This document shows positions 1,700 through 49,674 of a stretch of DNA of 64,000 nt, in pieces. Origin of the DNA: Alteromonas macleodii ATCC 27126 (GTDB lineage Bacteria; Pseudomonadota; Gammaproteobacteria; Enterobacterales; Alteromonadaceae); assembly GCF_000172635.2 (NCBI RefSeq), contig NC_018632.1:1488001-1552000 (forward strand), read 5' to 3'. The notes under the pieces are model-generated. The model searched no databases and had not been told where the DNA came from. It saw only the letters and a list, made by a program, of their open reading frames with translations. Each line of letters opens with the position of its first letter. The stretch's first letter is position 1. The position numbers and the translations under genes were made by a program.

Positions 1700-1773
1700 G
1701 GACAGACACTGCAATTAAATCTGTAAGCAAATAGATGCAAAGCCATTTTAAGAAAGCTTCAGTGGACAGACAC
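1700..1773. repeat. Two GGACAGACAC words in the 1645-1992 gap
   Basis: Exact copies of the dispersed 10-base word at 1700-1709 and 1764-1773, both reading GGACAGACAC on the plus strand, the direction of the flanking genes. A degraded form (AGACATACACC) follows near 1804. Apart from the tRNA terminator, I see nothing else in this 348-base gap except the ribosome site AAAGAGGTG before 1993. Confidence 0.85.
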
Positions 1774-1992
1774 TCTTCTTTCCCTCTTTAAACCATCTAC
1801 CTAGACATACACCGATCATTTTCATCGGAATTTGCAATTCTTACAAAAGAGGCGTCAACACCTTCGCGCAAGTACTTTTCAGAGGTTCAATGCGTAAAGA
1901 ACTCATGTCACAACCCTTTAAGAAACTTTTGTGTGATAGATACGTGAGCTTGTTGAACTGTTATGATCTAAAAAATACAAAAGAGGTGTTAT

Positions 1993-2898
1993 ATGCAGAA
2001 TTATCCAATTGGAACTCCTGGTGAGCCGTGGGGCGAAGAAGAAAAAGCCCAATGGAAAGCACAGCAGACTGTGAAAAGAAGTTATCAGGAAGAAGTACTT
2101 AATAAACTCTTCAGCATTATCCCTGAAGGCTTTGAGTTAAAGCAGTATGGCGCACTTCCTTATGATACAGCGCGTTACCCACTATATGCTGTAATTCCCA
2201 AGAGTTTTGACGCTGAAAAGCCGTCTGCACTCGTTACAGGCGGTGTTCACGGCTACGAAACTAGTGGTGTGCAAGGAGCGCTTCAATTTATTGAAACAAA
2301 GTTGGCTCAGTACGCAGAGCAAGTAAATATAGTTGTGGTGCCATGTGTAAGTCCCTGGGGATACGAGTCGATAAATCGATGGAACCCAATGGCATTAGAT
2401 CCGAATCGCTCGTTTTACAGTGATTCTCCTGCACCAGAGTCTGCTCAGCTTATGCAATTAGTATCTGATTTAGCGTTATCTCTTACGCTTCATATTGATT
2501 TGCACGAAACGACAGACACGGACAATAGTGAGTTTAGACCAGCACTGGCTGCGCGGGATGGGGTGACCCATGATAACTGGAACATTCCAGATGGTTTCTA
2601 TACGGTTGCTAATACTCCAAGCCCCCAAATAGAGTTTCAAAAAGCAGTTATTGAGGCTGTGAAAAAAGTAACGCATATCGCACCGGCCGATGAAAACGGA
2701 AAGATTATAGGTGCAGATGTGGTGAGTGAAGGTGTAATTTGCTATGACAAGAAGTCGTTGTACCTTTGTGGAGGTATGACAGATGCTAAGTACGTCACAA
2801 CTACAGAAGTCTATCCCGATAGCGATAATGCGACACCCGAAAATTGCAATGATGCTCAGGTGGCCGCAATTTGCGCTGCACTCGATTATTTAAATTAG
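1993..2898 (+). CDS. M14-family zinc carboxypeptidase-like protein
   Basis: A 301-residue cytoplasmic protein (no signal peptide) of the M14 metallocarboxypeptidase/succinylglutamate desuccinylase-like fold. The first zinc-ligand pair is GGVHGYE (H86, E89), an N-R pair appears in LDPNRSF (about 136-141), and the second zinc histidine is in HIDLHE (about 167-172). These are in the order expected for M14 enzymes, so hydrolysis of a peptide or amide bond is likely, but the substrate cannot be read from sequence. The start is supported by AAAGAGGTG 7 bases upstream. It stands alone: two dispersed words lie in the gap before it and a hairpin at 2933 follows it. Confidence 0.8.
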   Translation: MQNYPIGTPGEPWGEEEKAQWKAQQTVKRSYQEEVLNKLFSIIPEGFELKQYGALPYDTARYPLYAVIPKSFDAEKPSALVTGGVHGYETSGVQGALQFIETKLAQYAEQVNIVVVPCVSPWGYESINRWNPMALDPNRSFYSDSPAPESAQLMQLVSDLALSLTLHIDLHETTDTDNSEFRPALAARDGVTHDNWNIPDGFYTVANTPSPQIEFQKAVIEAVKKVTHIAPADENGKIIGADVVSEGVICYDKKSLYLCGGMTDAKYVTTTEVYPDSDNATPENCNDAQVAAICAALDYLN

Positions 2899-2932
2899 AC
2901 GCTTGAACGTTTAGACGTCTAGATGTATATTT

Positions 2933-2954
2933 GAGCCTCTTTTTTAGGAGGCTC
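2933..2954 (+). promoter_or_regulatory. Hairpin holding the Shine-Dalgarno of the next gene
   Basis: GAGCCTC (2933-2939) can pair with GAGGCTC (2948-2954). The ribosome site AGGAGG (2946-2951) of the gene at 2958 lies inside the 3' arm. It may act as a weak terminator for the peptidase gene or restrain translation of the small gene; only the pairing is directly visible. Confidence 0.5.
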
Positions 2955-2957
2955 TTT

Positions 2958-3179
2958 GTGTTTACTTATTCTGCGGTTATTTACGACGGTAAAAAGCAAA
3001 ATTTAGTGAGGTATGACTGTGGGACAGACACTGAGTTTTCCTCATATCTTGAATCGCGCTTTGGTTGTCATGTCTGTTTGTGGTCCAATAAAGAGCTATC
3101 AGAAACTACAATGGCAGCTATCGCAGCTTCGCGAGTACAGAGTAAAAAAGACGGTCTGGATAAAACAGAAGCTTTATGA
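2958..3179 (+). CDS. Small conserved-looking hypothetical protein (73 aa)
   Basis: I do not recognise the family. The GTG start at 2958 is chosen because AGGAGG lies 6 bases upstream; an upstream TTG at 2931 has no ribosome site. The protein starts MFTYSAVIYDG and has no obvious membrane segment. Its stop overlaps the start of the DUF1289 gene as ATGA (3176-3179), which argues for translational coupling and for this being a real gene. One exact GGACAGACAC word (3022-3031) lies inside it and encodes part of GTDTEF. Confidence 0.55.
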   Translation: MFTYSAVIYDGKKQNLVRYDCGTDTEFSSYLESRFGCHVCLWSNKELSETTMAAIAASRVQSKKDGLDKTEAL

Positions 3180-3364
3180 ACTTAATTTCCCCATGTGTAG
3201 CCTTGTGCAAATTAACCGAAGAAGACATTTGCATTGGGTGTAAACGTACGATTGAAGAAATCATTAATTGGCGGACATACACCGATAATCAAAAGAAGGC
3301 CGTATTCACTCGCCTTGAAAATTTAGAAAAGGAAGCCGCTACCCAGTCACAGCCTCGTAAATAG
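3176..3364 (+). CDS. DUF1289 family protein, four-cysteine motif
   Basis: A 62-residue protein with the DUF1289 pattern SPCVALC...CIGCKRT followed by EIINW. Cysteines at about 7, 11, 19 and 22 are spaced as a possible metal site. The molecular role of this family is not established. It overlaps the preceding small gene by ATGA, so both are probably translated from one message. A degenerate word (GGACATACACC) near 3274 lies within the codons for WRTYTD. Confidence 0.85.
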   Translation: MNLISPCVALCKLTEEDICIGCKRTIEEIINWRTYTDNQKKAVFTRLENLEKEAATQSQPRK

Positions 3365-3401
3365 GCTAAGTGCGAACTTCTATCAAGAACTTTCTACATA
3401 T

Positions 3402-3489
3402 GGACAGACACACAAGCTTTTCTATTCGTATAGAATTAGAAGCCTGCATCACTCCCACATGAATTAAAGTGTCTAGCGGACAGACACTT
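3402..3489. repeat. GGACAGACAC words, one inside a short palindrome
   Basis: Exact words at 3402-3411 and 3478-3487 in the 283-base gap before dusC. The second forms an inverted repeat with an upstream half copy, AAGTGTCT ... AGACACTT (3467-3489). A weaker form (AGACAGTCAC) follows at 3540. Confidence 0.8.
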
Positions 3490-4615: not shown

Positions 4616-5590
4616 TCACGACAGATACCTTTGGGCATTTGCAACGTTTGGGCGACATGCCCTTTGGCAGCATCTGGCGAAATTCTCCATCATCTCGGGG
4701 CAACCGACAGGCCCAGTAAAAAGTGTTTCAAAATTACTAGTTACTAGCTGCCAGTTTTCTTTTGTCATTCCAAGCTTACTTAGCAAGCGGTTAGGAAGCT
4801 TTGGGACTTTGCAGATATCGTTATTACTCTCTGCATTCATCGTATCAGTGATAAGCTGCAAATAATCGGTAAATGCGAAGGGCAACGGCACTGTGTTCTT
4901 GTGGTGACTATCGCTAAAGGGCATCAAAAACTTAGGCGTTTTATTCGAGCGTTTGGCATTCAACCGATATTGGATACTAGTATGGTGAGAGTTGCTTAGC
5001 GTCGTCGCTATTTTTGCTCGAATGGGATTTAAATCGACGTAAGCCATTACACTGGCCAGTGCTTTCTCATCGAGTATAGCTTGTGACCTAAACCTTCTTT
5101 CCCAGAAATAGCCCTTACATTCATCTTCTTTGTTAGCTCTTCGAGCAATATATTCATTGAGCATACGCATAAACCAGCTGATGCTTTGAAGTCGCTCTCG
5201 ATATAAAACAGATAATGATTTCAATTCAGCAAGTTCTTCTGACGTTACAGAATCAAAGTTTTCTAAATATCGCTGCACTACGGGCGGGCATTTATAAAAC
5301 ATCCTCCACCGAAGCAAGACCTCATCCATCGTCCAGCCTTCAGCTCTGCCTTTTGCTATATGTAATACCACATGAATGTGATTGTGCATAACAGCGTAGG
5401 CGCATAGGTCGATGGCAAAAGCTTGAGAAAGCTTATGGAGCCTGTCTTGAATCCACTTTCTTCTATGCTCATAGTTTATGCCAGTGCGGGCATCGCGACC
5501 ACAAAGGTAAGATTGCCTCACGCAGCGAGAAATGCAGTGGTAATAAGGTGTAACATCAGTATTTATTTGCTTGTAACGAGGTAGAGGCAT
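4616..5590 (-). CDS. RAYT / Y1-type transposase (REP-associated tyrosine transposase family)
   Basis: A 324-residue HUH-type single-strand endonuclease relative of IS200/IS605 TnpA. The start region YYHCISRCVRQSYLCG is typical of this family; the HUH metal site is in MHNHIHVV (H71 and H73), and the conserved AYVDLNPIRA block lies in the second half. It is longer than classical TnpA (about 140-150 aa), as in the domesticated RAYT group, and no terminal hairpins of a mobile IS are obvious at its borders. RAYTs are known to be linked to dispersed short palindromic REP elements. Here three GTGTCTGTCC-type words and a hairpin lie within 350 bases of its 5' end, with GGTCTTTGGGACAG just upstream. 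The catalytic tyrosine was not assigned with certainty. Confidence 0.85.
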   Translation of the reverse strand: MPLPRYKQINTDVTPYYHCISRCVRQSYLCGRDARTGINYEHRRKWIQDRLHKLSQAFAIDLCAYAVMHNHIHVVLHIAKGRAEGWTMDEVLLRWRMFYKCPPVVQRYLENFDSVTSEELAELKSLSVLYRERLQSISWFMRMLNEYIARRANKEDECKGYFWERRFRSQAILDEKALASVMAYVDLNPIRAKIATTLSNSHHTSIQYRLNAKRSNKTPKFLMPFSDSHHKNTVPLPFAFTDYLQLITDTMNAESNNDICKVPKLPNRLLSKLGMTKENWQLVTSNFETLFTGPVGCPEMMENFARCCQRACRPNVANAQRYLS

Positions 5591-5722: not shown

Positions 5723-5896
5723 GGACAGACACTCGAATTTCATAACGGATAGACGTCAATCGTTAAGTCTATTTGACCCAAAAGAAAAAGGACAGACACC
5801 CTTATTCGCCGGGTTTCTGTCCTTTCTAATTTCCTTATTGCAAAGCCGCCTCTACTAGCAAGAGGACTAAGCAAAAGTACCAACGAGTGTCTGTCC
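5723..5896. repeat. Dispersed words and hairpin upstream of the RAYT gene
   Basis: GGACAGACAC at 5723-5732 and 5790-5799 and GTGTCTGTCC at 5887-5896. The middle copy forms a hairpin at 5787-5825: AAAGGACAGA-C-ACCC pairs with GGGT-T-TCTGTCCTTT with one internal mismatch. The rest of the 5591-5921 gap holds a GGGACAG/GGGACGG stretch at 5656-5675 but no gene I can support. Confidence 0.85.
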
Positions 5897-6149: not shown

Positions 6150-6806
6150 TTATTGAGCGCTAAGAATTAAACTTCTTAAGTGTCTGTCCATAAAATTAGC
6201 GATCAAAGGCTGTGCCTCAGCATTGGGATGAATACCATCGTTTTGCATTAAGTCCTTATTTAGCGCTATTTCTTCAAGGAAAAATGGAATTTTTTGAACG
6301 TCCTGAGCTTCCGCTACTTTATTGAAGTTTTGAGTAAACATCTGCGTATAGCGCTTGCCATAATTAGAAGGAATTTGCATTTCTTGCAGAAACACTACGG
6401 CATTACTCTCCTTCGCAACACTTACCAGTGAATCTAAATTATCCCTAATCTTACCGATATTATGGCCCTGAAGGCCGTCATTACCGCCCAGTTCAATCAA
6501 TACATGGGTAGGGTTGTGTTGCTCTAATAAACGGGGAAATCGCGCTAAACCACCGTCAGTGGTCTCTCCGCTTACCGCAGCATTTACAATATCAATCGGA
6601 ATGTTGTCGTCTTGCCACATCTTTTGTAACAAACTGACCCAACCCTCATGTTGCTGTAATCCATAAGCCGCGGATAAACTGTCACCTAAGATAAGTAAAA
6701 CCGCATTTTCGCTTGTGTCGCTCTGCTCGGCTTGATCTGATAGCGCTTGAAAGGGTATTAAAAGAATAAGTAAAAACGCGAACAAACAACGAAATTTAAC
6801 AAACAC
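6150..6806 (-). CDS. tesA: Periplasmic GDSL esterase / acyl-CoA thioesterase I
   Basis: A lysophospholipase L1-like SGNH hydrolase acting on acyl thioesters and esters in the periplasm. The GTG start at 6806 is preferred because AGAGG sits 8 bases upstream and because it begins directly at a signal peptide (residues 1 to about 24, ending QALS). The frame is open further upstream but would run into the divergent ybbA gene. Block I is LGDSLS (Ser about 43), GGND supplies the oxyanion Asn, and DGIHPN holds the Asp and His. Length 218 aa compares with 208 for E. coli TesA. The divergent tesA/ybbA arrangement is conserved in enterics. The last codons (MDRHL) are made by a GTGTCTGTCC word at 6180-6189. 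Confidence 0.93.
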   Translation of the reverse strand: MFVKFRCLFAFLLILLIPFQALSDQAEQSDTSENAVLLILGDSLSAAYGLQQHEGWVSLLQKMWQDDNIPIDIVNAAVSGETTDGGLARFPRLLEQHNPTHVLIELGGNDGLQGHNIGKIRDNLDSLVSVAKESNAVVFLQEMQIPSNYGKRYTQMFTQNFNKVAEAQDVQKIPFFLEEIALNKDLMQNDGIHPNAEAQPLIANFMDRHLRSLILSAQ

Positions 6807-7521: not shown

Positions 7522-10044
7522 ATGTCGACGTCTTTTAATTTAGCTTGGCGGCTTTTCAAGCATGAAGCTAGACGTGGTGAACTGACCATCATATTGCTGG
7601 CCATTGTGCTTTCTGTGGCAGCCGTATTGTCGTTGTCACTTTTTAGCGAGCGTTTACAGGGCGCACTAAAGTCTCGCTCTGCGGCTTTCATTGCAGCAGA
7701 TGCGCAACTTCGTTCAGACGACCCTATAAACGAGGAATGGTTGGCTAGAGCCCGAGAAGAGGGCCTTGCGACGGCAAAGCAGGTAGCAACACGTTCAATG
7801 GTATTTAAAGGCGACGAGATGTCGCTTGTTGATTTACGAGCCGTGAATGACGCTTATCCACTGAAAGGGACAGTCAATATTACCGACCAGCCTTTTGGAG
7901 AAAAACGCAATACTGCAGAATTACCTCAGTCTGGGGAAGCATGGGTACAGTCTCGGCTTTTTCAGAGCTTGGGGCTTTCTATTGGCGATAGTATCGATAT
8001 TGGTGATGGCACTTTTACCGTTACGCATGTATTGGTAGATATTCCCGATGCTGGTTTTAGCGTGTTTAATACTGACCCTATTGCGCTAATTAACTTAAAC
8101 GACTTGGAAAAAACTGCGATAACCGGGCCAGGGAGTCGCGCTCGTTATGTGGGCTTTTTTGCCGGTGATGCGGGTGACATAGAAAACTTCAATACCTGGT
8201 TATTGCCCCAATTAAATGACGACTTACATTCGTGGCGTACAGTCGAAGATGACGAGTCAGCGATAGGGCGTTCTGTCGCAAGTGCTGAGCGCTATTTTCT
8301 GTTAGCGAGTTTGTTAGCAATAGTATTAGCGGCCGTTTCCATTGCCGTTGCTGCTCAGCGTTATGCTCAACGTCACTTTGATCCCGTAGCAATAATGAAG
8401 ACCTTGGGGGCAACAAGCAGTACCATTCGAAAAGTCTATTTGTTCCAAATTTTATTTATCACTGGGCTTGGTATTTTTATTGGCCTCGTTATAGGTTTTA
8501 TCGGTCAGCAAGTAGTGATTTCACTTGTAGCGGACAGAGTGGATGTATCTCTTGATGTGTGGCATTGGCGGCCGCTTTTAATCGCCGTTGCTACAGGCGC
8601 TACGTGTGCATTGCTCTTTTCCTTATATCCGCTTTTGCAGCTATTTTCAGTTCCTCCGCTTCGCGTATTAATAAAGGACATATCAGCGAATTTACGTTCC
8701 AGAAGCATTCAGTTCGTGGCTTCCGGTGGCGCAATATTCTTACTGATGTGGATGTATAGTCGAGATTTAAAAATTAGCGCTATTCTTTTCGTTTCTGGCG
8801 CTGCGTTGGTGCTCGGATTACTTGGTGCTACGTATATCTTAATTGCTGTAGGTCGCAAGCTGGGCAGTGGAAGAATGGGGGCGTGGCAGTTGGCATGGGC
8901 ACGTATTAAGCGACGTGCAATGGACAACAGCGTGCAGCTTATTAGCTTTTCCGTCACCATTATGTTGCTTTTAGTGGTGCTGGTAATGCGCAACGATATG
9001 GTTTCGCAATGGCGCTCGCAATTGCCCGAAGGTACACCCAATTATTTCTTAATTAACATTACGCCAGACATCCAACCAGAATTGGACAGACACTTCGCTG
9101 ACAATGGAGTAAAAATCGAAGAGTTTTATCCTGTCATTCGAGGCCGATTTGTTTCGGTAAATGGAGAAGGGGTAAACACCGAGGTTTCTAAAGAAGATGA
9201 GCCGAATCGAGAAGGCCGAAGAGGTTTAGGCAGAGAAGCAAACCTAACTTGGAGCAACGCGCTTCAAAAAGAAAACGAGGTCATTGACGGGAACTGGCAT
9301 GGCGATGAGGATAAACACTACAGCGAAGGATGGTTCCCGGTTTCCGTTGAAGAAGGCGTTGCAGAAAGGTTGAACATTAAAATGGGCGATCGGCTTACTT
9401 TTAATGTGGGAAGCGAGATTGTCGAAACGAAAGTAACGAGTATTCGTACTGTGAATTGGCAGACTATGCAGCCTAACTTTTTCTTCGTTATTCACCCTGA
9501 GGCAATGGCCGCATTTAGCCCAACTTATATTACTAGTTTCTACCTTCCTACCGAGAGAAAGGCAGAGTTAACTAACCTACTTAAACCGTTTGCATCAATA
9601 ACTATGTTCGACGTTGATGCTCGAATTAATCAGTTGCGAGAGATTGTGGATCAGGTGTCTGTTGCCGTTGAATTTATTTTGGTGCTGGTATTGTTAGCGG
9701 GCAGTCTGGTATTGATTGCACAAGTACAGGCGAGTATGGATGAACGCAGACAGGAAATAGCCATACTTCGGACGCTAGGTGCAAAGGGGGCGTTGATAAG
9801 AAAAAGTGTTATTTTTGAGTTTGTTATCATTGGTGTAGTAGCAGGCTTTATGGCAGCAATGGCCAATGAGTTGAGCCTTTATTTACTTCAAACCTCTGTA
9901 TTCCAAATGGAAGCAAGCTTACACCCAGAATACTGGGCAATAGCGCCAAGCGTTGGCGCTGTCGTTGTAGGCATATTAGGTGCGTTTGGATGCTGGCGTT
10001 TGCTTACACTTAATACCAGTCAGATGCTGCGGAATATGGTTTAG
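7522..10044 (+). CDS. ybbP: FtsX-like ABC permease YbbP
   Basis: An 840-residue inner-membrane permease that pairs with YbbA. One membrane helix lies near residues 20-40 after a short cytoplasmic start (SFNLAWRLFKHEARRGE), followed by a periplasmic domain of about 200 residues. FtsX-type helices lie around 255-275, 300-335 and 350-375, with further helices and a second periplasmic segment. The final FtsX domain (VEFILVLVLLAGSLVLIAQVQ, MDERRQEIAILRTLGA) closes the protein. E. coli YbbP has about 804 residues. A GGACAGACAC word at 9084-9093 is in frame and codes for LDRHF in the second periplasmic part. Confidence 0.92.
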   Translation: MSTSFNLAWRLFKHEARRGELTIILLAIVLSVAAVLSLSLFSERLQGALKSRSAAFIAADAQLRSDDPINEEWLARAREEGLATAKQVATRSMVFKGDEMSLVDLRAVNDAYPLKGTVNITDQPFGEKRNTAELPQSGEAWVQSRLFQSLGLSIGDSIDIGDGTFTVTHVLVDIPDAGFSVFNTDPIALINLNDLEKTAITGPGSRARYVGFFAGDAGDIENFNTWLLPQLNDDLHSWRTVEDDESAIGRSVASAERYFLLASLLAIVLAAVSIAVAAQRYAQRHFDPVAIMKTLGATSSTIRKVYLFQILFITGLGIFIGLVIGFIGQQVVISLVADRVDVSLDVWHWRPLLIAVATGATCALLFSLYPLLQLFSVPPLRVLIKDISANLRSRSIQFVASGGAIFLLMWMYSRDLKISAILFVSGAALVLGLLGATYILIAVGRKLGSGRMGAWQLAWARIKRRAMDNSVQLISFSVTIMLLLVVLVMRNDMVSQWRSQLPEGTPNYFLINITPDIQPELDRHFADNGVKIEEFYPVIRGRFVSVNGEGVNTEVSKEDEPNREGRRGLGREANLTWSNALQKENEVIDGNWHGDEDKHYSEGWFPVSVEEGVAERLNIKMGDRLTFNVGSEIVETKVTSIRTVNWQTMQPNFFFVIHPEAMAAFSPTYITSFYLPTERKAELTNLLKPFASITMFDVDARINQLREIVDQVSVAVEFILVLVLLAGSLVLIAQVQASMDERRQEIAILRTLGAKGALIRKSVIFEFVIIGVVAGFMAAMANELSLYLLQTSVFQMEASLHPEYWAIAPSVGAVVVGILGAFGCWRLLTLNTSQMLRNMV

Positions 10045-10084: not shown

Positions 10085-10344
10085 GGACAGACGCTCGGTC
10101 AAGTGCCGTTTAGATTAAGGGCAGTGGACAGTCACTCAATTCAAATGAGTGTCTGTCCACTGTGCATTTCACAGCAAAGTTCACTAATTACAAAAGAATG
10201 GTTTTCGCGAAGAGTTTGAGAAGTGCTCTGGTTTGATAGTAAATAGATGTTTTTGAGGTTTGTAACTAAGCAAAGTGCCTCGCGATAATGTTGTGCAATA
10301 AATGTGGACACACACTTGCTTAGCAATTCAAGTGACTGTCCACA
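10085..10344. repeat. Two mismatched hairpins built from the dispersed word
   Basis: The 328-base convergent gap between ybbP and yfcH holds five word copies. Hairpin 1 (10123-10161): AGTGGACAG-T-CACTCA pairs with TGAGTG-T-CTGTCCACT with one central mismatch. Hairpin 2 (10303-10344): TGTGGACACACACTTG pairs with CAAGTGACTGTCCACA except for the two central bases. A one-mismatch copy is at 10085. No T tract follows, so they are not classical terminators. I see no gene here. Confidence 0.9.
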
Positions 10345-10372: not shown

Positions 10373-11269
10373 CTATGCGCGATATATTTCTCTTAGCGCC
10401 TCGTCGATAGAAGGGAAGTCAAAACTGAAGCCGGCGGTAGTAAGCTTTTGAGGAATGACTCTTTGCCCCTCAAGTATCATCGTCGACGATTCGCCCATTG
10501 CTATTTTCATAACAAAGCCCGGGACATTGAACAGGCAAGGTCGATTAAGTGATTTTGCGAGCGCTTTAGAGAACTCCTTGTTCGTCACTGGTTCTGGTGC
10601 CGTTAAATTAAATGCACCAGAACATGCACTATTCTCGAGCAAGAAGGAGATAGCACGCACCATATCTTGTAAGTGGATCCAGGCCAAATACTGACTACCA
10701 CTCCCAAGTGTACCTCCGGCCCCCAATTTAAACGGTAGTGCCATTTTCTCTAACGCTCCGCCTTTTTCGGTGAGAACTACACCAGTTCGAAGCGTTACGA
10801 CACGTGTCTTAGCTTGATCTACACTTTGGGCAATAGTCTCCCATTTAGCGCACAGTTCATGGGTGAACTCGTTATGAGGAGGAGTTTCTTCAGTTACAAG
10901 CTTGTCTCCTTGATTGCCGTAGTAACCAATCGCGGAGCCCGATAAGAAAACAGGCGGAGGCGCATCACAACTATTTATTTTTGAGACTAGCTCAGAAGTG
11001 ATGTCCCAGCGGCTATTGCAAATTATTTTCTTTTGAGTGTCTGTCCAGCGCTTATCGGCGATAGGCTCACCAGCTAAATTAATTACTGCGTCGAAATTCT
11101 CAAAATTCTCTATCGAAGAAACGTTCTCGACGATTTTGACGTTATCCCCCAATTTGCTCTTTGCTTTTGCAAAGTCGCGAGAAATCACCGTAAATTCATG
11201 TTCTCGAGAATATTGACGAATAAATTCGCCTCCTATCAGCCCTGTTCCACCGGTCAAAAGAATGTTCAC
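10373..11269 (-). CDS. yfcH: TIGR01777-type NAD-dependent epimerase-like protein YfcH
   Basis: A 298-residue SDR-fold protein with the N-terminal dinucleotide motif TGGTGLIGG (6-14), the VINLAGEPIADKRW block typical of the YfcH/SulA-like family, SGSAIGYYG, and the C-terminal DUF1731 region ending FDFPSIDEALREI. The substrate is unknown in this family. It follows folX by 23 bases on the same strand, the same pairing as in E. coli, so an operon is likely. A GTGTCTGTCC word at 11037-11046 lies in frame and codes for RWTDTQ. Confidence 0.9.
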   Translation of the reverse strand: MNILLTGGTGLIGGEFIRQYSREHEFTVISRDFAKAKSKLGDNVKIVENVSSIENFENFDAVINLAGEPIADKRWTDTQKKIICNSRWDITSELVSKINSCDAPPPVFLSGSAIGYYGNQGDKLVTEETPPHNEFTHELCAKWETIAQSVDQAKTRVVTLRTGVVLTEKGGALEKMALPFKLGAGGTLGSGSQYLAWIHLQDMVRAISFLLENSACSGAFNLTAPEPVTNKEFSKALAKSLNRPCLFNVPGFVMKIAMGESSTMILEGQRVIPQKLTTAGFSFDFPSIDEALREIYRA

Positions 11270-12794: not shown

Positions 12795-13073
12795 GGACAG
12801 ACACTCAGCTGTTTTAGCGTAATTCTTCGAAAGACTGCACTCAAGCTAGATAAAAGCGACTGTCTGCTTCTACTTGTACAATTTTTACGCCCGAAAAAGA
12901 AAGGTTAAAAGGCGACAGACACGCAATCCATTTTAAAACAGAATTTTCTCATTGGTTTCTAGCTAAACAGTCAGTTGAGAATGTGTCTGTCTGCCCCAAA
13001 CTTTTGTGTAAATCTAAGTGTGTGTCCACTTTCCATACGCACCAAATTTTTGTAGGAACTCAAGTGTCTGTCC
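12795..13073. repeat. Dispersed words in the 12776-13147 convergent gap
   Basis: GGACAGACAC at 12795-12804, GTGTGTGTCC at 13019-13028 and GTGTCTGTCC at 13064-13073, with one-mismatch forms CGACAGACAC at 12912 and GTGTCTGTCT at 12983 that can face each other. No gene or T-tract terminator is visible in these 372 bases. Confidence 0.85.
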
Positions 13074-14479: not shown

Positions 14480-15150
14480 AAACTTCTATTTATCCTATAG
14501 CCTCTACCTCGAAGGGTTTCGATTGGCTTTAACTCACCGGTCGGGTCCAGCTTTTTCCGCAGTCTTCCCACGAAAACCTCTATTACATTACTATCTAAAT
14601 CGAAATCTTGGTCATAAATGTGCTCGGTTAGCTCTGTTTTAGAGATGACCTTTTGCGGGTTAAGCATAAGGTACTCCATGACTTTGTATTCGTAAGCTGT
14701 TAGATCCAAAGCTTGACCGTTTAACGATAGTTCTTCACTAACGGTATCCAGCGAGATAGGGCCGAACTGAATGGTTGGGTTCGCTTGTCCTGAAGCTCGT
14801 CGAATTAGTGCTTTTGTTCGAGCAAGTAACTCTTCGTTGTGAAAGGGTTTGGTGAGGTAGTCATCGGCTCCGGCATCAAGGCCTTCCACTTTCTCTTGCC
14901 ACCTATCTCTAGCAGTTAAAATGAGTATAGGGCAGGAAATATCAGCTTGACGGGCTTTTCGTATAACCTCAAATCCGTCTAGCTTTGGCATGCCGATGTC
15001 GACGATAGCCAGGTCATAGCTATATTCTTTAATGAGAAAAAGCGCGTGCTCACCATTATCTGCGAGGTCTACGCTATAGCCATTTTGCTGAAGGAGCGCA
15101 TCAAGCTGGGTTAATAATCTGCTATCGTCTTCGGCTACGAGGATACGCAT
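14476..15150 (-). CDS. PhoP-like OmpR-family response regulator
   Basis: A 224-residue DNA-binding regulator. The receiver has the acidic pocket EDD (7-9), phospho-acceptor D51 in AIVDIGMPKLDG, T79 in LILTARD and K101 in LTKPF. The winged-helix trans-activation domain covers about 125-224 (LTAYEYKVMEYLML ... VEVFVGRLRKKLD ... TLRGRGYRI). It sits between a PepSY protein gene (1 base gap) and its kinase (4-base overlap), forming a three-gene operon. Confidence 0.9.
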   Translation of the reverse strand: MRILVAEDDSRLLTQLDALLQQNGYSVDLADNGEHALFLIKEYSYDLAIVDIGMPKLDGFEVIRKARQADISCPILILTARDRWQEKVEGLDAGADDYLTKPFHNEELLARTKALIRRASGQANPTIQFGPISLDTVSEELSLNGQALDLTAYEYKVMEYLMLNPQKVISKTELTEHIYDQDFDLDSNVIEVFVGRLRKKLDPTGELKPIETLRGRGYRINRSL

Positions 15151-15151
15151 G

Positions 15152-15575: not shown

Positions 15576-15843
15576 GGACAGACACTTAGTTGCTAAGAGG
15601 CCACAAGTCAAAATGAGAGTGTCTGTCCACAAGTCTATTTCTAAGCTTCAAAGTGACGCATATATTTAAGTGCTCTCGTTAGTAAGTCATATTGAGTAAT
15701 CTTTACTTCTACTTTGAAAAAGTGTCTGTCCACTTTGTTGATTGTTATTAAGGGGGACCAATGTTTATTGTGCAAACGAGTGACTGTCCACGGTTTTTGT
15801 AAATTAGTTCTCAACGCTCATATGGATGTACGAGTGTGTGTCC
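15576..15843. repeat. Cluster of five dispersed words in the 15422-16052 gap
   Basis: GGACAGACAC at 15576-15585 pairs perfectly over 15 bases with GTGTCTGTCC at 15619-15628 (TTGTGGACAGACACT / AGTGTCTGTCCACAA). Then three plus-oriented copies follow: GTGTCTGTCC 15722, GTGACTGTCC 15780 and GTGTGTGTCC 15834, about 55 bases apart. A near copy, GGACAGACAT, lies at 16021 just before the ribosome site of the next gene. No coding gene is supported in these 631 bases. Confidence 0.88.
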
Positions 15844-16583: not shown

Positions 16584-16718
16584 AGTGTCTGTCCACAAGG
16601 GATTGTTTATTGCGATTGTTGGCTGATTATTAAGTGACTGTCCACTATCAATGATGTGAAGCTTGGTGAACGATTACAAGTGTGTGTCCACATTATTTCG
16701 GTAAATAAGTGTCTGTCC
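16584..16718 (+). repeat. Four same-direction dispersed words
   Basis: GTGTCTGTCC 16584, GTGACTGTCC 16634, GTGTGTGTCC 16680 and GTGTCTGTCC 16709, all in the same orientation at spacings of 50, 46 and 29 bases. The first three repeat the order of variants (TC, AC, TG) seen at 15722-15843 on the other side of the intervening gene. Together with the terminator at 16751 this accounts for the 16518-16834 gap. Confidence 0.9.
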
Positions 16719-17138: not shown

Positions 17139-17948
17139 TTATCCTTTCGCCGTAGCGGCTTTCATGCTTTCAACAAAGCTGCCGAGCTCGCTTAGCATTT
17201 TGTGACTGTCCGATAAATTGGCAGCGATAATATTCACTGTCGCCGAGCCTGAAATTGCGCCAGCGGCACCAGCGTCAATAGCAGATTTAACCTGTTCCGG
17301 TGTAGAAATACCAAAACCTAACAATGCTGGTGCTGCTTTGTGTTTGTTCAAGCGCTCAATAAGCTCTGAAGCAGGCACGTTTGCGGCAGTTTCTGCGCCA
17401 GTAACGCCAGCACGACCCAGCAAATACGTGTAACCTTTCGAGTATTCCCCGATTTTTTCCATGGTTTCGTCAGTAGCATTAGGTGGTGCAATCAGAATTT
17501 GTGAAATGCCAGTGGCTTCGGCTGCTTTTTGAAAAGGTGCCGCTTCGCGAATAGGAACGTCAGCGACCAAAATTGAGTCAACGCCTGCCTCTTGCGCTTT
17601 ATTGTAAAAGTTCTCAATACCTTGGGCCATTACTAAGTTGCTGTACAGTAGCAAGCCGATAGGCACATTAGGATATTTTGCGCGAACACGTGAAATAACG
17701 CCCAAGCAATCTGCTACCGTCACCTTATTACTTAATGCGCGAATGGCAGAAGCTTGGATTGTGGGGCCGTCGGCGATGGGGTCAGAGTAAGGTATACCTA
17801 ACTCAAGTGCGTCAGCACCGCTTTCTACCAGCTGGCAAATAATGGCTTCAGATTGCGCTAAATCGGGGTCACCTACCATTACAAAAGGTACGAAAGCGCC
17901 TTGGTTCTTTTTATCAAGCCCGGCAAACATTTGTGCATATCTATCCAT
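17139..17948 (-). CDS. trpA: Tryptophan synthase alpha chain
   Basis: Cleaves indole-3-glycerol phosphate to indole, which is channelled to TrpB. It is a 269-residue TIM barrel: [32 protein letters not shown] (catalytic Glu and Asp), [29 protein letters not shown] and the phosphate-binding GFGIS / GAISGSA loops. It overlaps the trpB stop by one base (TAATG). A GTGACTGTCC word at 17202-17211 codes in frame for LSDSH near the C-terminus. Confidence 0.97.
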
Positions 17949-19129
17949 TATAAATCGTCCCCTAAAATGTTGATAACGTGCGCTAAATCTTTGTCGCCAC
18001 GACCTGATAAGTTAACTACGATGATGGTTTCTTCTTCCGCTTCATCTGCCATATTAAGCGCGTGCGCTAAGGCATGCGACGATTCAAGGGCAGGAATAAT
18101 ACCTTCTTTTCTTGCAAGCAATTGGAATGCGTTCAGCGCTTCTTCGTCGGTGGCGGCCACGTATTCCGCTCGGCCAATGTCGTGAAGATAAGCATGCTGA
18201 GGGCCAACAGCAGGGTAGTCCAGTCCAGCAGATACTGAGTAGCTCTCTTCAATCTGGCCTTCTTTGTCTTGCATAATGAAGGTGTATGCGCCGTGAAGAA
18301 TACCTTTTGTACCCGTCACGATAGTTGCGCCGTGCTCTTTGGTGTGCACACCTTTACCCGCAGGCTCAACGCCCACCAGGCGTACAGAAGGCTCTTCAAT
18401 AAAGTCTGCAAACATACCGATAGCATTTGAGCCTCCGCCCACACATGCCACTACTGCGTCAGGTAAGCGACCTTCTTTTTCCATAATTTGTGCGCGAGTC
18501 TCTTCGCCAATCATGCGGTGATATTCACGAACAATAGTCGGGAACGGGTGAGGACCCGCGGCTGTGCCTAACAAATAGTGCGCTTTATCATAGTTTGCTG
18601 ACCAGTCGCGCATGGCTTCGTTTACGGCATCTTTAAGGGTACCTGAGCCTGCGTTTACAGGAATAACCTCTGCGCCCATAAGCTTCATTCGGAACACGTT
18701 TGGCGCTTGACGCTCAACGTCTTTCGCACCCATATAAATACGTGCCTTTAGCCCCAACAATGCACATGCTAACGCAGTTGCAACACCGTGTTGGCCCGCG
18801 CCTGTTTCGGCAATAACTTCTTTTTTACCCATGCGCTTGGTAAGTAGCGCTTGGCCCAACACCTGGTTAGTTTTGTGAGCGCCACCGTGTAGTAAGTCTT
18901 CACGCTTTAGGTATAACTTCACCTTTGGGTTACTTACCAGATTGCGAGTTAACGTCATTGACGTTGGGCGACCGGCGTAGTCTTTTAACAGAGATAAAAA
19001 CTCTTCGTTAAATGTCGGGTCGTCCTTGGCATCCAAAAATGCTTTTTCCAGTTGGTCTAGTGCTGGAATTAGTAGTTCGGGCACGTACATGCCACCAAAT
19101 TCACCAAATTTTGTATCTAACTGGTTCAT
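17948..19129 (-). CDS. trpB: Tryptophan synthase beta chain
   Basis: A PLP enzyme condensing indole with serine to give tryptophan. It has 393 residues, the usual length. The PLP lysine is in HGGAHKTNQ (K86), the phosphate-binding glycine loop is [11 protein letters not shown], and [10 protein letters not shown] precedes the active site. The C-terminal NLSGRGDKD is intact. It forms the alpha2-beta2 complex with TrpA, whose gene follows with a one-base overlap; trpCF lies 20 bases upstream. Confidence 0.98.
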
Positions 19130-19149
19130 TACGTTGTCCTGTATTTAAA

Positions 19150-20559
19150 TTAGTAACGGCGGCAAATGGCAAAAAGCGCGTCGAGTTTTTCTTCGCTTTT
19201 CACGCCGGGTGCGGTTTCTACGCCTGAATTCACATCAATAGCACCACAGCCGGTTGCAATAGCTTCTGCAACATTCTGGGCGTTAATACCGCCAGCAAGC
19301 ACTAACTTATGCTTCGCTTCGATATCGTTTAATAGTTGCCAGTTGAACGCTTCGCCTGTACCGCCTTTGGCATCACCCACTTGGCAATCCAGAAGAACAC
19401 GGCTTACAAGGCTATTTTTTAAGTGTCTGTCCACTGCGTCTGGTAGTGCGCCAGAAGAGGTTGCTTTAACACCTTCGACTTTCCAAATTTCACAACCTTC
19501 TGGAAGCTTGGCAGCAAGCGCTGAAATGTAGGTGTCATCTTCGCTGCCGTGAAGCTGCACGGCAAAAAGGTTGAGCAAGGCGGCGAGTGATGCCACTTCA
19601 TCAATGTCGTGATTAACGAACACACCAACAAAAGCACCGTCAATGCTCTGCGTTATAGTCAAAGCCTGTGCTTCGCTCACATAGCGTGGCGATTTTTCAG
19701 CGAAGATAAGCCCGCCAAAGCTAGCGCCTTTATCAAACGCCATTTGCGCTTGTTCGGGGTTGGTAAGCCCGCACACTTTAACTGCGCCATTCACTAACGT
19801 TTTCACAGCGCGCGGTAGGTCAGCCTCTGCCATTAACGCACTGCCCACCAAAAAGCCTTGGGATACAGGCGCTAAACGAAGCACGTCTTGATGTGTGTAT
19901 ATGCCCGACTCTGAAATAACCACGTAGTCGTGCGTGGCTTTTTCAAGCATGGGCACAAGGAGTTCGGTTGTGGCTAAATCGGTAGAAAGGTCGCGTAAGT
20001 TGCGATTATTGATACCAATGATGTTGGCTTCAAGGGCAATAGCGCGCTCCATTTCTTCTTCATTACTTACTTCGGTAAGAATGTCTAATGACAGAGCATT
20101 GGCAACGCTTGCCAACTCGCGATATTCGTCATCATTTAGCACACTAAGCATTAATAGCACTGCGTCGGCATTATAGTGACGGGCTAGATACACTTGATAG
20201 GTATCAACGAAGAAATCTTTGTTAAGCACAGGCTGAGCAACACGCTCAGTAACATAAGCTAAGTACTCAAATTTACCTTGGAAGTACTTCTCGTCTGTCA
20301 GCACAGAAATACCGGCAGCATAAGGCGTGTAAGCCGCTAAGATCTCGTCTAAATCGAAATGCTCTCGAATAAGACCTTTTGAAGGCGATGCTTTTTTGCA
20401 TTCGAAGATAAAGCCTGCGTTTGGCTCACTAAGTGCGGCAAATAAACTCTTTTCGGAAGGAACTAGATTCGCCTTGAAGCTTTCCAGCGGCAGTGCTTCT
20501 TTGCGTGCGGCCACTTCTTCTCGTTTGTCTGCAACAATTTTCTCAAGCACATTAGCCAT
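19150..20559 (-). CDS. trpCF: Bifunctional indole-3-glycerol phosphate synthase / phosphoribosylanthranilate isomerase
   Basis: A fused two-barrel enzyme of 469 residues. The TrpC half (about 1-255) has FIFECKKASPSKGLIR, PVLNKDFFVD, AVLLMLSVL and GINNRNLRDL. The TrpF half (about 256-469) starts VKVCGLTNPEQ and has GGLIFAEKSPRYVS and LLDCQVGDAKGGTGEAFNW. It performs two consecutive steps, isomerisation of PRA and ring closure to indole-3-glycerol phosphate. It overlaps trpD by 8 bases. A GTGTCTGTCC word at 19423-19432 codes for VDRHLK inside the TrpF half, in a loop region between KATSSGALPDA and VLLDCQ. Confidence 0.97.
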   Translation of the reverse strand: MANVLEKIVADKREEVAARKEALPLESFKANLVPSEKSLFAALSEPNAGFIFECKKASPSKGLIREHFDLDEILAAYTPYAAGISVLTDEKYFQGKFEYLAYVTERVAQPVLNKDFFVDTYQVYLARHYNADAVLLMLSVLNDDEYRELASVANALSLDILTEVSNEEEMERAIALEANIIGINNRNLRDLSTDLATTELLVPMLEKATHDYVVISESGIYTHQDVLRLAPVSQGFLVGSALMAEADLPRAVKTLVNGAVKVCGLTNPEQAQMAFDKGASFGGLIFAEKSPRYVSEAQALTITQSIDGAFVGVFVNHDIDEVASLAALLNLFAVQLHGSEDDTYISALAAKLPEGCEIWKVEGVKATSSGALPDAVDRHLKNSLVSRVLLDCQVGDAKGGTGEAFNWQLLNDIEAKHKLVLAGGINAQNVAEAIATGCGAIDVNSGVETAPGVKSEEKLDALFAICRRY

Positions 20560-23941: not shown

Positions 23942-23972
23942 TTTTGCTACTCTCCAACTGCAAAAAGACAAA

Positions 23973-23996: not shown

Positions 23997-24036
23997 TTAT
24001 GTGTATTCATTCACGCACTACAGTGCACACCGCCCG

Positions 24037-31503: not shown

Positions 31504-31564
31504 CTCGAATTTTAATAGTATGTTGGTATATGTGGTTTTTACTTTTTAGTGAGGTTAGGTGGCG

Positions 31565-43151: not shown

Positions 43152-44214
43152 TGTTACTTCCGTTGGATTTATTTAGTGAAGGTGCACTATTTAATGAAAA
43201 CAGCAGCTGTTTTACTGCGTTTATTTGTGCGCCGTTCCTGTTGGCGTAATCGCCAGAGGCATAGCCCCACCAATCCCAACAGCCTTGTGGATTTAACGGC
43301 ATGAATAACGACTTCTTAGTTTGCGGATAAAGCACAACAATATTGTTGTCATCAGCCCATTCATTCAGCCCTGTTTGGGTAGTGTAGGCATCGCCTACGG
43401 CATCGGCATACTGGTTACAGCCGTGGAAACTAATATGGGCTCTGCATGGCTCGCCTTGTGCACAGCTTTCAGGCACATACATAAAGCCTTCACTTGCTAA
43501 TGTTTTGGCATCGTCACCCGCTATTTTTTGCTGATCAATTGAATGAATTTGCCCTGACAGTGACTCGTCGGGTGTCGAAACATCTTCAACAAGATGAGAG
43601 AGCATGGCACCTGCTGCATCGTAATCGCAGTTTCCAATGAAGGGGCTCTCTGATTTCATGCAGTTAACCCCATTGTTTTTGGTGGGAAAAAGGTGAGCCA
43701 TCGGTTTATCATTGATATAGGCAATATTTTGTGTGTCTGTCCACAATTTGTATTGCTCAAATAATAAATCGCTCACTGGTGCAATCACTCTGGTGTCTTG
43801 CGTACCGTGAAAAAGCCAGACTTTTGTGTCTTTCATATTGGAAAGCGACGCAATTTTTCCTTCAGTTTCATACTGTTTGGCTTTTTCATTCAGCGCTTCA
43901 AGGTTAATTTCTCCCTCTACCTTGTTCACGCACTGTGCCAGGGCAGTGGTTATATCACCTTGTGCACAGAAGTACGGGCCACCAGCAATAACGCCAACGC
44001 CTTTTACCCAGTCGCTGTGTGCTAATTGAAATTGTGTTGCCATGTAACCGCCTGACGATAAGCCAGATACGGTAACGTTCTTTAAATCAATGGTGAGTGA
44101 AGGGAGCGCGTCTTGCGCAGATGACTCGTTACCGAATACCGGTACACTAACGGCAAGTGCGCTTAATACAGACAGACAAAGCGCGTGGCGTAAAAAGGGG
44201 GTAGATTTCATCAT
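43144..44214 (-). CDS. Secreted poly(3-hydroxybutyrate) depolymerase-like protein
   Basis: A 356-residue exported alpha/beta hydrolase. The signal peptide (1-29) ends VPVFG; the nucleophile is in GLSSGGYMA (S53), and WLFHGTQDTRV and HISFHGCNQYADAVG follow the PHB depolymerase family. ECs of this group cleave PHB or its oligomers outside the cytoplasm. It overlaps the upstream hydrolase gene as ATGA and the BDH gene by 8 bases. A GTGTCTGTCC word at 43733-43742 codes for LWTDTQ in frame. Confidence 0.87.
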   Translation of the reverse strand: MMKSTPFLRHALCLSVLSALAVSVPVFGNESSAQDALPSLTIDLKNVTVSGLSSGGYMATQFQLAHSDWVKGVGVIAGGPYFCAQGDITTALAQCVNKVEGEINLEALNEKAKQYETEGKIASLSNMKDTKVWLFHGTQDTRVIAPVSDLLFEQYKLWTDTQNIAYINDKPMAHLFPTKNNGVNCMKSESPFIGNCDYDAAGAMLSHLVEDVSTPDESLSGQIHSIDQQKIAGDDAKTLASEGFMYVPESCAQGEPCRAHISFHGCNQYADAVGDAYTTQTGLNEWADDNNIVVLYPQTKKSLFMPLNPQGCWDWWGYASGDYANRNGAQINAVKQLLFSLNSAPSLNKSNGSNND

Positions 44215-47032: not shown

Positions 47033-47190
47033 AGTTATTATTCCTTAAAAAATCTGTGACCGCAGATGATCCTAAACAGTTAAGTCGATTTAAGATTTGC
47101 TTACACTCAAAACCACAAAGTGTATACAAATCAGATAAAAAGCGTTCATAACAGACATAAAGTTTGACGTTACTTTTATCAAAATCCCAT

Positions 47191-47206
47191 AGTACGATGG
47201 TACTAC
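47191..47206. promoter_or_regulatory. Dyad between the permease operon and the TonB receptor gene
   Basis: TAGTAC-GATG-GTACTA is a perfect 6-base inverted repeat about 90 bases before the receptor start, just after TTGACG (47165-47170). The position would suit an operator overlapping a promoter of the receptor gene. No regulator gene is adjacent, so the factor is unknown. Confidence 0.4.
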
Positions 47207-47295
47207 ATACTATTAACAAATAATTAACTAAAGTGATTTTGACCGTAGGCAATACATCCGGCAGTGACCAGAACTTAGAACAACAAGGACTCACT

Positions 47296-49674
47296 ATGTC
47301 TCAATCAATACACACAAATGGCTTGGTTTTACCCTACCAATCACATTCAGCCTCTGTTAGTACAGTAGAACGCAAAAGCGATTCAGTTAAGCTCCCCATT
47401 CGCAGCCTTTGTGCCCTAGCGGTGGCTAGCGTTTTAAGCACAGCGCCAGTATTTGCTCAGGATAGTCAAGCTGATGCCGATGCCGAAGCGCAAAAAGGAA
47501 AATTAGAACGCATTGAGGTGACAGCGCGAAAAACTGTAGAGTCGCTACAGGAAACGCCGGTAGCTATCACGTCTATTGGTGCGGTTGAACTTGGAGAAAA
47601 AGGGATTAGCGTGCTGACTGAAGTGCAGCAGTTTTCGCCCAACACTACGCTACAAACTAGTCGCGGTACCAATTCCACCTTGACGGCGTTTATTCGCGGA
47701 TTGGGTCAGCAAGACCCGCTTTGGGGCTATGAACCAGGCGTGGGTATTTATGTTGATGATGTTTATATTGCTCGCCCACAAGGGGCCGTACTTGATTTGT
47801 TAGACGTACAGCGTATTGAGGTGTTACGTGGCCCGCAGGGGACGCTTTACGGAAAGAATACCATTGGTGGCGCGGTTAAATACGTTACGAAAGAAATGAC
47901 CGGCGATACGCAGATGAACGTTGAAGCTACGGTAGGTAGTTACAGTCAGCGTGATATCAAAGTGACAGGTCAAATACCGCTGATTGAAGACACGGTGTAT
48001 CTAGGCGTGGGTTATGCCAACTTAAACCGCGACGGCTTCGGCGAATATCTGGTAAGCGCGTTGCCCAATCAAGATAAAGAGAATTATAACAAAGATCTCT
48101 GGGCAGCACGTGTAACGCTAGAAGTTCACCCGAGTGAAGATTTGTTTTTCCGTATTGGGTGGGATAAGACCGAAGACACATCAAATGCGAAAGGCGGCTA
48201 CCGTTTAATCCCAAGTATATTAACTGATGCGCCCGTGCCTGATTCGGTTTTCGATTCGTACACCAGCTTACCTACATGGAATAAAGTCGAGTTAGAAGGC
48301 TATAACTGGCTGGCACGATACAGAGTGAATGATGATTTAGAGCTTAAATATATTGGTTCGCATAGAGAGAGCTATTCACCTACCAACATTGATTTTGACA
48401 ATACGCCTCTGCCTATTTTTGATGTACCGGCAGAGTATGACGACAGTAATGATACTCACGAGATTCAAGCGAATTATACCGGGAACGCGTTTAGCTTAGT
48501 GTCAGGGCTCTATTTTTACGATGGTGAGAGTTGCGGTAATTTTGATGCCATTTTAGGTGTGTTAGGTCAATCGCTTGGTGCCTCAGGGTTAACGCGGGAA
48601 GTGACGGGTTGTAATAACTCAGAAAGCTGGGCTGCCTATGCGCAGATGAACTATGACGTAACCGATAAACTATCGCTTTCGCTTGGTGCCCGATACACCG
48701 ATGAAGAAAAGACCGCGTTTGTAAATAACGGTCTGGTATTCGCCAATGTTTATCCTTATACCGACTGGATTGATGGGTACGTGCGTCCCGACGGACAATT
48801 AGTACCTCAAGTACTTGGGACAGACACCGATGGCGATGAAGTGTTAGACGCGCCAGCGGTAGAAAGTTGGTCGCGCTTTACCCCGCGAGTGGGCGTGGAG
48901 TATCAAATGGACCGCGATACCATGTTCTTCGCGAGCTATTCACAAGGCTTCAAATCGGGCACGTTTAACCCTCGTGCTCAGACTAACGAGCCTGGTGTTG
49001 AACCAGAAGTCGTTGACAGCTTCGAAGTGGGTGTGAAGAGTGACTTAACCGACGCACTTCGTATGAATATCACATTGTTCTCTTACGACCACAAAGATCG
49101 TCAGTATATTGGTGTAGAAGGAGATTTGTCTGATCCAACAGCCCTTGACCAGCGACTGCGCAATGCTGCAGAAACGGCTGCAAAAGGCGCCGAGTTGGAG
49201 ATGACGTGGGTAGCCACGGATAACCTTCAGTTTGACGTTGCTTATGGTTATATTGACTTTGAGATTAAGAAAAACAATGCAATCCCTCCGTTGATTGGTC
49301 TAGCAAGTACGCCAGAGAATACCTTTAATCTTAATGCCAACTACCTACTAGAAACGAGTTTTGGGGATATTACTTTCAACGCCAACTACTACTATCGCGA
49401 TGATTATCTTATCTTTGAAACCAGCGATCTTATTCAACAAGATGCCTATGGGATGGTGAACTTAAGCGCGCGCTGGGAAAGCGTTGAAGGCGACTGGTAT
49501 GCTGGACTACACGTCAAAAACCTGACCGATGAAGAGTATCTGGTTGGTGGTTATGACTTTGTCACGCAAGACGATGAAGGTAACTTTGGTCCGGGCCTTG
49601 GTGGTGATACGACACTTATCGGTTATTACGGTGACCCACGTACAGTTCACCTTACGGTAGGTTATCGATTCTAA
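47296..49674 (+). CDS. TonB-dependent outer membrane receptor
   Basis: A 792-residue outer-membrane active transporter. The start at 47296 (MSQSIHTNG) is supported by AAGGA. A long N-terminus is followed by a signal segment (about 40-55, LCALAVASVLSTAPVFA). The TonB box region KLERIEVTARK is followed by the plug (ETPVAITSIGAVEL ... RGLGQQDPLWGYEPGVGIYVDDVYIARPQGAVLDLLDVQRIEVLRGPQGTLYGKN) and a beta barrel ending VHLTVGYRF with terminal Phe. It is divergent from the 3-hydroxybutyrate operon and may import oligomers or a related carbon source; that role is inferred. A word at 48818 codes for GTDTDGD. Confidence 0.9.
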   Translation: MSQSIHTNGLVLPYQSHSASVSTVERKSDSVKLPIRSLCALAVASVLSTAPVFAQDSQADADAEAQKGKLERIEVTARKTVESLQETPVAITSIGAVELGEKGISVLTEVQQFSPNTTLQTSRGTNSTLTAFIRGLGQQDPLWGYEPGVGIYVDDVYIARPQGAVLDLLDVQRIEVLRGPQGTLYGKNTIGGAVKYVTKEMTGDTQMNVEATVGSYSQRDIKVTGQIPLIEDTVYLGVGYANLNRDGFGEYLVSALPNQDKENYNKDLWAARVTLEVHPSEDLFFRIGWDKTEDTSNAKGGYRLIPSILTDAPVPDSVFDSYTSLPTWNKVELEGYNWLARYRVNDDLELKYIGSHRESYSPTNIDFDNTPLPIFDVPAEYDDSNDTHEIQANYTGNAFSLVSGLYFYDGESCGNFDAILGVLGQSLGASGLTREVTGCNNSESWAAYAQMNYDVTDKLSLSLGARYTDEEKTAFVNNGLVFANVYPYTDWIDGYVRPDGQLVPQVLGTDTDGDEVLDAPAVESWSRFTPRVGVEYQMDRDTMFFASYSQGFKSGTFNPRAQTNEPGVEPEVVDSFEVGVKSDLTDALRMNITLFSYDHKDRQYIGVEGDLSDPTALDQRLRNAAETAAKGAELEMTWVATDNLQFDVAYGYIDFEIKKNNAIPPLIGLASTPENTFNLNANYLLETSFGDITFNANYYYRDDYLIFETSDLIQQDAYGMVNLSARWESVEGDWYAGLHVKNLTDEEYLVGGYDFVTQDDEGNFGPGLGGDTTLIGYYGDPRTVHLTVGYRF

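Follow-up and report, generated by a model that had tools for sequence, protein, structure and literature searches.

The stretch of DNA considered here, called the window in the following, comprises 64,000 nucleotides of the 4.65-Mb chromosome of a genome of the genus Alteromonas (G000:C1:1488001-1552000; G000 denotes the query genome). It contains, near the gene dus, a gene for a putative HUH/Y1 transposase of the type associated with repetitive extragenic palindromic (REP) sequences (4616-5590, minus strand) and many copies of a ten-base word, GTGNNTGTCC, in which the two positions NN vary. The window holds 43 copies of this word, compared to a mean of 1.03 and a largest value of 5 in shuffled sequences, and the most frequent form, GTGTCTGTCC, occurs 28 times on both strands together (shuffle mean 0.06). 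A preliminary description, made from the window sequence alone, had given the same 28 copies, together with seven copies with AC (GTGACTGTCC) and six with TG (GTGTGTGTCC), and these counts are exact at the coordinates that it stated. Its claim that only TC, AC and TG occur holds for 41 of the 43 words, called canonical in the following, beside which there are one TA (GTGTATGTCC, 3273) and one CC (GTGCCTGTCC, 3834); the latter lies in dus, is kept in one of 13 relatives and behaves like a chance match. The flanking preference reported there is real, with GA or AA preceding 33 and AC following 20 of the 41 canonical words, and the copies are both intergenic and intragenic as described, the gene list used assigning 31 of the 43 to noncoding and 12 to coding DNA.

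The enrichment of the word is local. The entire chromosome contains 99 copies of GTGNNTGTCC, and of its 62 canonical words 52 lie within 1.447-1.537 Mb and ten in the other 4.56 Mb, which corresponds to a density ratio of about 264 (calculated from counts entered by hand). The preliminary description had named genome-wide counts close to expectation as grounds for refutation; the word is strongly above expectation within a territory of about 90 kb centred on this transposase gene and near chance level across the remaining genome. The words are spaced irregularly, on both strands, and across many intergenic regions and genes. The features of the window are the following, given with their positions in the window and their strand:

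1700-1773, minus: two words (1700, 1764) following tRNA-Glu genes
3022-3031, minus: single noncoding word
3273-3282, minus: variant word GTGTATGTCC, identical in 7/7 relatives compared
3402-3487, minus: two noncoding words (3402, 3478) on the 3' side of the transposase gene, past dus
4616-5590, minus: putative HUH/Y1 REP-type transposase gene (protein P0001), centre of the territory
5723-5799, minus: two words (5723, 5790) upstream of the transposase gene
5887-5896, plus: single word upstream of the transposase gene, 7/7 relatives compared
6180-6189, plus: word in a GDSL lipase gene, kept in 13/13 relatives
9084-9093, minus: word in an FtsX-type permease gene, NN clade-dependent, 13/13
10126-10158, both strands: tail-to-tail word pair (10126 minus, 10149 plus)
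10306-10341, both strands: tail-to-tail word pair (10306 minus, 10332 plus)
11037-11046, plus: word in an epimerase (DUF1731) gene, 12/13
12795-12804, minus: single word, taken as noncoding
13018-13073, plus: two words (13018, 13064)
15576-15628, both strands: tail-to-tail word pair (15576 minus, 15619 plus)
15722-15843, plus: three words (15722, 15780, 15834)
16585-16718, plus: four words (16585, 16634, 16680, 16709)
17202-17211, plus: word in trpA, 10/12
19423-19432, plus: word in a fused trpC-trpF gene, 13/13
23122-23179, plus: two words (23122, 23170) in a length-variable stretch of trpE, 9/9 and 7/7 aligned relatives
23628-23637, plus: word in trpE, 9/12
25238-25247, minus: single noncoding word
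30797-30806, minus: word in an open reading frame without Pfam match, where outgroups encode the same residues without the word, 10/12
31331-31377, minus: two words (31331, 31368)
31420-31504, plus: three words (31420, 31453, 31495)
43733-43742, plus: word in an S9-type peptidase gene, 9/9 aligned relatives, present also in the clade with 59% transposase identity
48818-48827, minus: word in a TonB-dependent receptor gene, the least conserved, 3/6 aligned relatives

The trp genes at 17139-24010 (trpA, fused trpC-trpF and trpE) carry five of the words, two of which are situated in the length-variable segment of trpE. Another repeated word, CCCTAGGGGA, is found four times in the window, at 1083-1773; its 8-mers rank top in six of ten dus regions without the transposase gene and in the genome G068, and it is probably tied to the tRNA cluster.

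The predicted transposase and its residence beside dus

The open reading frame at 4616-5590 encodes 324 amino acids, matches Y1_Tnp with 27.9 bits and reaches 43.9 bits with the NCBI model for REP-associated tyrosine transposases (RAYTs), below the cut-off of 80. Its AlphaFold model has a mean predicted local distance difference test score (pLDDT) of 88.8, and the solved structure matching it best is 4er8, the E. coli protein TnpA_REP bound to a REP hairpin (E 2.9e-5). N70, H71, H73 and Y184 are invariant in an alignment of 64 sequences and, judged from sequence and model, the protein is a HUH/Y1 REP-type transposase with its catalytic residues kept. By its length, the motif YVDLNP and the distance of 111 residues from HUH to Y (H73 to Y184) it appears to resemble subclass 2.3 of the TnpA_Y1 proteins, for which a median of 325 amino acids and a median HUH-Y distance of 110 are given in the subclass description of a published survey (Quentin et al., 2018; PMC6006769). 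The HUH motif reads NHIH here as compared to NHYH in subclass 2.3, and its middle residue is not among the invariant columns of the 64-sequence alignment.

A match to dus is present in 58 of the 59 genomes of the genus, and the transposase gene lies at most 4 kb from dus in all 25 Alteromonas genomes, the query included, whose dus DNA is at least 75% identical. Distances between the transposase proteins correlate with the corresponding dus distances (Mantel r 0.93, p 0.0001, 19 genomes), and the ratio of nonsynonymous to synonymous substitution rates (dN/dS) amounts to 0.03-0.12 in nine of 11 relatives, with dS above 2 and hence saturated in four of these nine comparisons and undefined in the two remaining relatives (G187, G158). 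The gene is under purifying selection, and it is old and stationary at the dus locus. A 45% identical relative of the transposase is found at the dus locus of G068 and a 56% identical one about 3 kb beyond dus in G129. Beside these two, ten genomes with a dus identity below 75% were examined, and their dus regions are without the gene (G100, G155, G157, G162, G171, G175, G179, G182, G188, and G193), its absence being seen genome-wide for G100 and G179 and in the region for the other eight.

Co-occurrence, spelling and conservation of the words

The words accompany the gene. In all 19 gene-bearing dus regions examined, the 8-mer with the strongest over-representation belongs to the word or to its local variant, and each of the ten gene-less regions holds 0-2 copies of GTGNNTGTCC per 31-40 kb. 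The spelling of NN changes with the protein: TC dominates where the transposase is at least about 66% identical, except in G160 (AC), TG and AC prevail in the clade at 59% identity, and the word in G153 is TTGACTGTCC. This can be followed at a single site, 9084, which reads GTGTCTGTCC in most relatives, GTGTGTGTCC in the three genomes of the 59% clade and GTGACTGTCC in G153, and at which the word is absent in G179, a genome without the transposase gene.

The words are also conserved beyond expectation, synonymous positions included. For the noncoding words, the aligned relatives (13 examined) show an identity of 98-100% at the eight fixed positions, 90-92% at NN and about 80% in the flanks. 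At the 12 coding sites all eight fixed positions are kept in 109 of 132 site-by-genome cells, while 43.5 are expected from windows of the same gene and phase. For synonymous third positions within the words, scored where the amino acid is kept, identity was seen in 282 of 318 cells, compared to an expectation of 211.4, and the per-site empirical p values combine to 1.1e-10 over 12 sites and to 2.6e-11 without the word at 3834. In a control of four words outside the territory, from which the words near 1616794 and 3231635 were left out, 8 of 26 cells were conserved, seven of them at position 1304690 and one of 19 at the other three sites.

Similar territories surround other members of the family. 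A second homologue in the query genome (1771773, 46% identical) is accompanied by 43 copies of TGGGTGTC in 120 kb (G000:C1:1712001-1832000), 42 of which lie between -20 and +35 kb, and a homologue in G024, possibly its counterpart, by 27 copies of TGGGTGTC. Around other family members there are 40 copies of AGGTGTGTC in G002, 39 of TGGGTGTC in G068 and, close to the gene, seven of TGAGTGTCC in G007. A survey of named loci covered the 56 of at least 14 kb out of 77, and log10 p <= -12 was reached by 12 of 12 Alteromonas loci, several of which are genomes already counted, and by five of 44 others, two of these five being arrays of complete elements. In both this survey and a sample of 19 further homologue loci, examined at 20 kb, a word of this type was required, and three of the 19 (G024b, G002, and G068a) reached the same value. 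The eight loci of the four multi-copy pairs in G066, G041, G012, and G117 did not, which would fit a build-up of territories around copies that remain in place. The query genome also has a third, more distant Y1 gene (3198430; L013/L154), which is accompanied by seven copies of GGGGTCAGA within 3.3 kb, resembling the published GGGGWSAS type, and shows no wider territory within 20 kb.

Origin of the words and competing explanations

A one-gene element of 1.1-1.35 kb can be delimited by comparing related copies that occupy different positions in G066, G041, G012, and G117, and its ends clearly carry outward-facing words in G066, G041, and G012, e.g., TGGGTGTCTA/TGGATGTCTA or GCGACTGTCC/GCGAGTGTCC, fitting NNGNNTGTCY. 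Arrays of about seven transposase copies, some of them partial, in a single orientation and within about 15 kb, are found in Microbulbifer thermotolerans (L188, L189), and these are a case of local, strand-biased movement; in L188 there are seven matches, and its self-matches, among those listed, are confined to about 1.3 kb. Members of the family can therefore move locally. The arrangement of element ends in such mobile relatives recurs in the preference of neighbouring words for a tail-to-tail orientation, which was seen 22 times within 150 bases at seven loci compared to four head-to-head pairs; this count left out G024b (2 to 1) and G200 (2 to 0) as probable relatives of counted loci and two Microbulbifer loci without such pairs. 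Word pairs 13-16 bases apart recur in several genomes. In the window, the tail-to-tail pairs at 10126-10341, with spacers of 13 and 16 bases, lie between two convergent genes, recur in relatives and could act as hairpins or terminators. An outward orientation relative to the gene gave a Fisher p of 0.0097 in G000 and was absent in G000b, G002, and G153, and it is a weak effect that is not general. Tandem runs of the word with a period of 18-30 bases occur in G153 (44101-44213 of a joined 60-kb region), G200 (14710-14858), and L238 (15659-15735), suggesting slippage or an enzyme-driven amplification of the word.

The words differ in how they may have arisen. Gap-free alignments to outgroups without the word are obtained for the coding words at 6180, 9084, 11037, 19423, 30797, and 43733, and at 30797 the outgroup G184 encodes the same residues, H-V-T-V-R, without the word, so that synonymous changes can generate it. 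Two of the trpE words (23122, 23170) are situated in an indel-rich stretch of that gene, and the intergenic words, in the part of the alignments viewed, in fast-changing DNA with small duplications. Words with one mismatch are not in excess in the window (29 compared to 31.7 in shuffles, beside 43 exact words), and hardly any excess is seen in G147, G166, and G184, while that in G187 and G168 is small.

From the place, co-occurrence, co-variation and conservation of the words and from the catalytic residues of the protein we infer that the words are probably recognition sites of the HUH/Y1 transposase-like protein encoded at 4616-5590, which would be domesticated and act locally, and that selection keeps them. 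Originally, the words may have been the ends of the transposase's own one-gene element, of which this copy would no longer move. The protein would act mainly in cis, near the site of its synthesis, binding the words and perhaps nicking them as single strands. The bound words would be useful to the cell or to the gene in that stretch, and selection would maintain them and create new ones by point mutation and local copying. The gene would represent a domesticated transposase, and the tens of words that surround it for roughly 25-45 kb to either side would be its territory of binding sites.

Several observations weigh against this reading. All ten gene-less dus regions belong to species that are less closely related than those with the gene, and eight of the regions were judged at the level of the region rather than of the genome. 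G068, with its 45% relative, has 12 copies of GTGNNTGTCC, mostly GTGACTGTCC or GTGCCTGTCC, and other 8-mers outrank them. Co-variation is not strict, as TC persists at 9084 in G160 and at 11037 and 43733 in the 59% clade. The conservation of the noncoding words was taken from local alignments, which favour conserved stretches, and the site-by-genome cells of the coding test are not independent since the genomes are related. The word at G000:C1:1304690, 188 kb from the gene, is kept in 7/7 relatives, no less well than the inner words. Territories are not universal, given the three of 19 further loci and the five of 44 non-Alteromonas loci mentioned above. In the noncoding part of the window alone, eight one-mismatch words are found where 2.9 are expected, so that some relics exist, and of the five other territories tested, four show an excess of one-mismatch words (G153, counted with NN fixed in the pattern, G068a, G000b, and G002; not Salinibius).

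Among the rival explanations, we consider it unlikely that the words form a sink of decoys, which would hold the transposase near its own gene and spare other DNA from cutting, with selection on the host keeping the words. In favour of decoys, the eight loci of the four multi-copy pairs show no territory, whereas transposase genes with a territory, in the genomes looked at, either have no second copy or differ clearly from their paralogues. Cis action would explain the locality of such decoys. What they leave unexplained is the purifying selection on the gene and its retention in 25 of 25 close relatives, as gene loss would be the simpler cure. A selfish linkage, in which the words help the gene to persist or spread, e.g., by biasing recombination or transfer of flanking DNA, and in which only linked words are favoured, is likewise improbable. 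It would agree with the locality over tens of kb, with words that diverge together with the protein and with the existence of mobile relatives, yet there is no sign of movement between lineages and the protein distances follow dus.

Clearly less probable is a neutral origin, by which the transposase copies its own ends into nearby DNA and the copies merely remain, as has been proposed for REPs of Marinomonas. The intergenic clusters resemble element ends with their 22 tail-to-tail versus four head-to-head pairs, local copying does occur as seen by the seven copies in about 15 kb of M. thermotolerans, tandem runs are found, and one-mismatch words are in excess in the four territories named above. 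However, the main territory shows no such excess, the six gap-free coding words are conserved at synonymous positions, and gene and words are old; neutral copying is therefore disfavoured in the main territory, because relics are scarce and because of the coding sites. Taken alone, the word might be a binding site of an ordinary kind, but it is highly improbable that it serves an uptake system or a methylase or other DNA-binding protein unrelated to the transposase, since its presence, spelling and place track the transposase gene and the rest of the genome is near chance level.

Returning to the recognition sites of a domesticated transposase, a more far-reaching proposal, which we put forward tentatively and with some doubt, is that they represent a new kind of chromosomal territory. 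A transposase that no longer moves might have recruited about fifty sites over about 90 kb, some through point mutation and others through local copying, with synonymous positions in trp and other genes among them, and might serve the cell there as a local factor that organises DNA or processes single strands. A genome could hold two or more of these territories, with a different word in each. Neighbouring genes, trp among them, carry codons that are seemingly kept for the putative binding site of another protein. Moreover, one locus in many species, with and without the gene and with a word respelled along with the protein, offers a natural series for following the co-evolution of a protein with some fifty sites.

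Comparison with known systems

Of the three readings in the preliminary description, namely a REP-like family, an uptake-type sequence and a protein-binding site, the last, tied to a REP-type transposase, fits best because the word tracks the HUH/Y1 transposase gene inside the cluster. The words are not REPs in the strict sense: they carry no GTAG-type head, and an inverted partner within 35 bases is lacking for 37 of the 41 canonical words, which on average do not tend to fold (mean fold z -0.10, two of 37 below -2), the other four being paired with an inverted partner and able to fold. Moreover, REPs are dispersed over the genome and mostly extragenic, whereas 52 of the 62 canonical words lie in 90 kb and 12 of the 43 window words are coding. 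Confinement to about 90 kb also speaks against a genome-wide repeat family, and the only about ten canonical copies in the other 4.56 Mb against a DNA uptake sequence. A CRISPR array or satellite does not agree with the irregular spacing on both strands across many intergenic regions and genes, and a comparison with known RNA families in Rfam gave three tRNAs only. DNA-binding proteins with a regional set of sites are known from MatP/matS and ParB/parS; these proteins are unrelated, and here the scale is tens of kb with several territories of different words. Literature containing the ten-base word or its complement included, among the titles listed, none on a bacterial repeat (one Burkholderia PCR assay and mostly animal, plant and human-cell work), and searches of the open-licence literature found no description of the word, of a repeat for subclass 2.3, or of an old, conserved territory without hairpins.

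A parallel is provided by the REP/RAYT systems and REPINs, in which a HUH/Y1 protein comes with a short repeat of its own whose form changes with the protein, inverted pairs are found and, as stated for rayt genes in the report concerned, orthologous genes keep their place (Nunvar et al., 2010; PMC2817692). The words described here differ from these by having no GTAG head, no palindrome when single, no genome-wide distribution and a frequent location in coding DNA. TIRYT genes likewise encode a Y1 protein and have, in place of REPs, terminal inverted repeats on their flanks, namely GGGGWSAS repeats (Di Nocera et al., 2013; PMC3733652); they are listed as subclass 2.1 in the survey mentioned above (Quentin et al., 2018; PMC6006769). 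Their word is another one, and the TIRYT-like gene of G000 (3198430) has its seven copies close by and no wider territory. The REPs of two Marinomonas REPtrons, Ma and Mb, are concentrated near tnpA_REP, as the words here are near their transposase gene, and this was read as recent arrival in the section of the report dealing with them (Corneloup et al., 2021; PMC8266576). In contrast to these hairpin REPs, the present sites are conserved and the residence of the gene is long, and the halo of repeats around a REP-type transposase can thus be old and conserved and need not mark a recent arrival. Finally, the protein shares with subclass 2.3 its 324 amino acids, the motif YVDLNP, the 111 residues between HUH and Y and a host from the Alteromonadales; the survey's account of this subclass reports no identifiable REP-like structure beside the genes and infers a recent, active spread (Quentin et al., 2018; PMC6006769). 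Here, an old and stationary copy is surrounded by a word without hairpin, which thereby becomes a candidate target sequence for a transposase subclass for which that account gives none.

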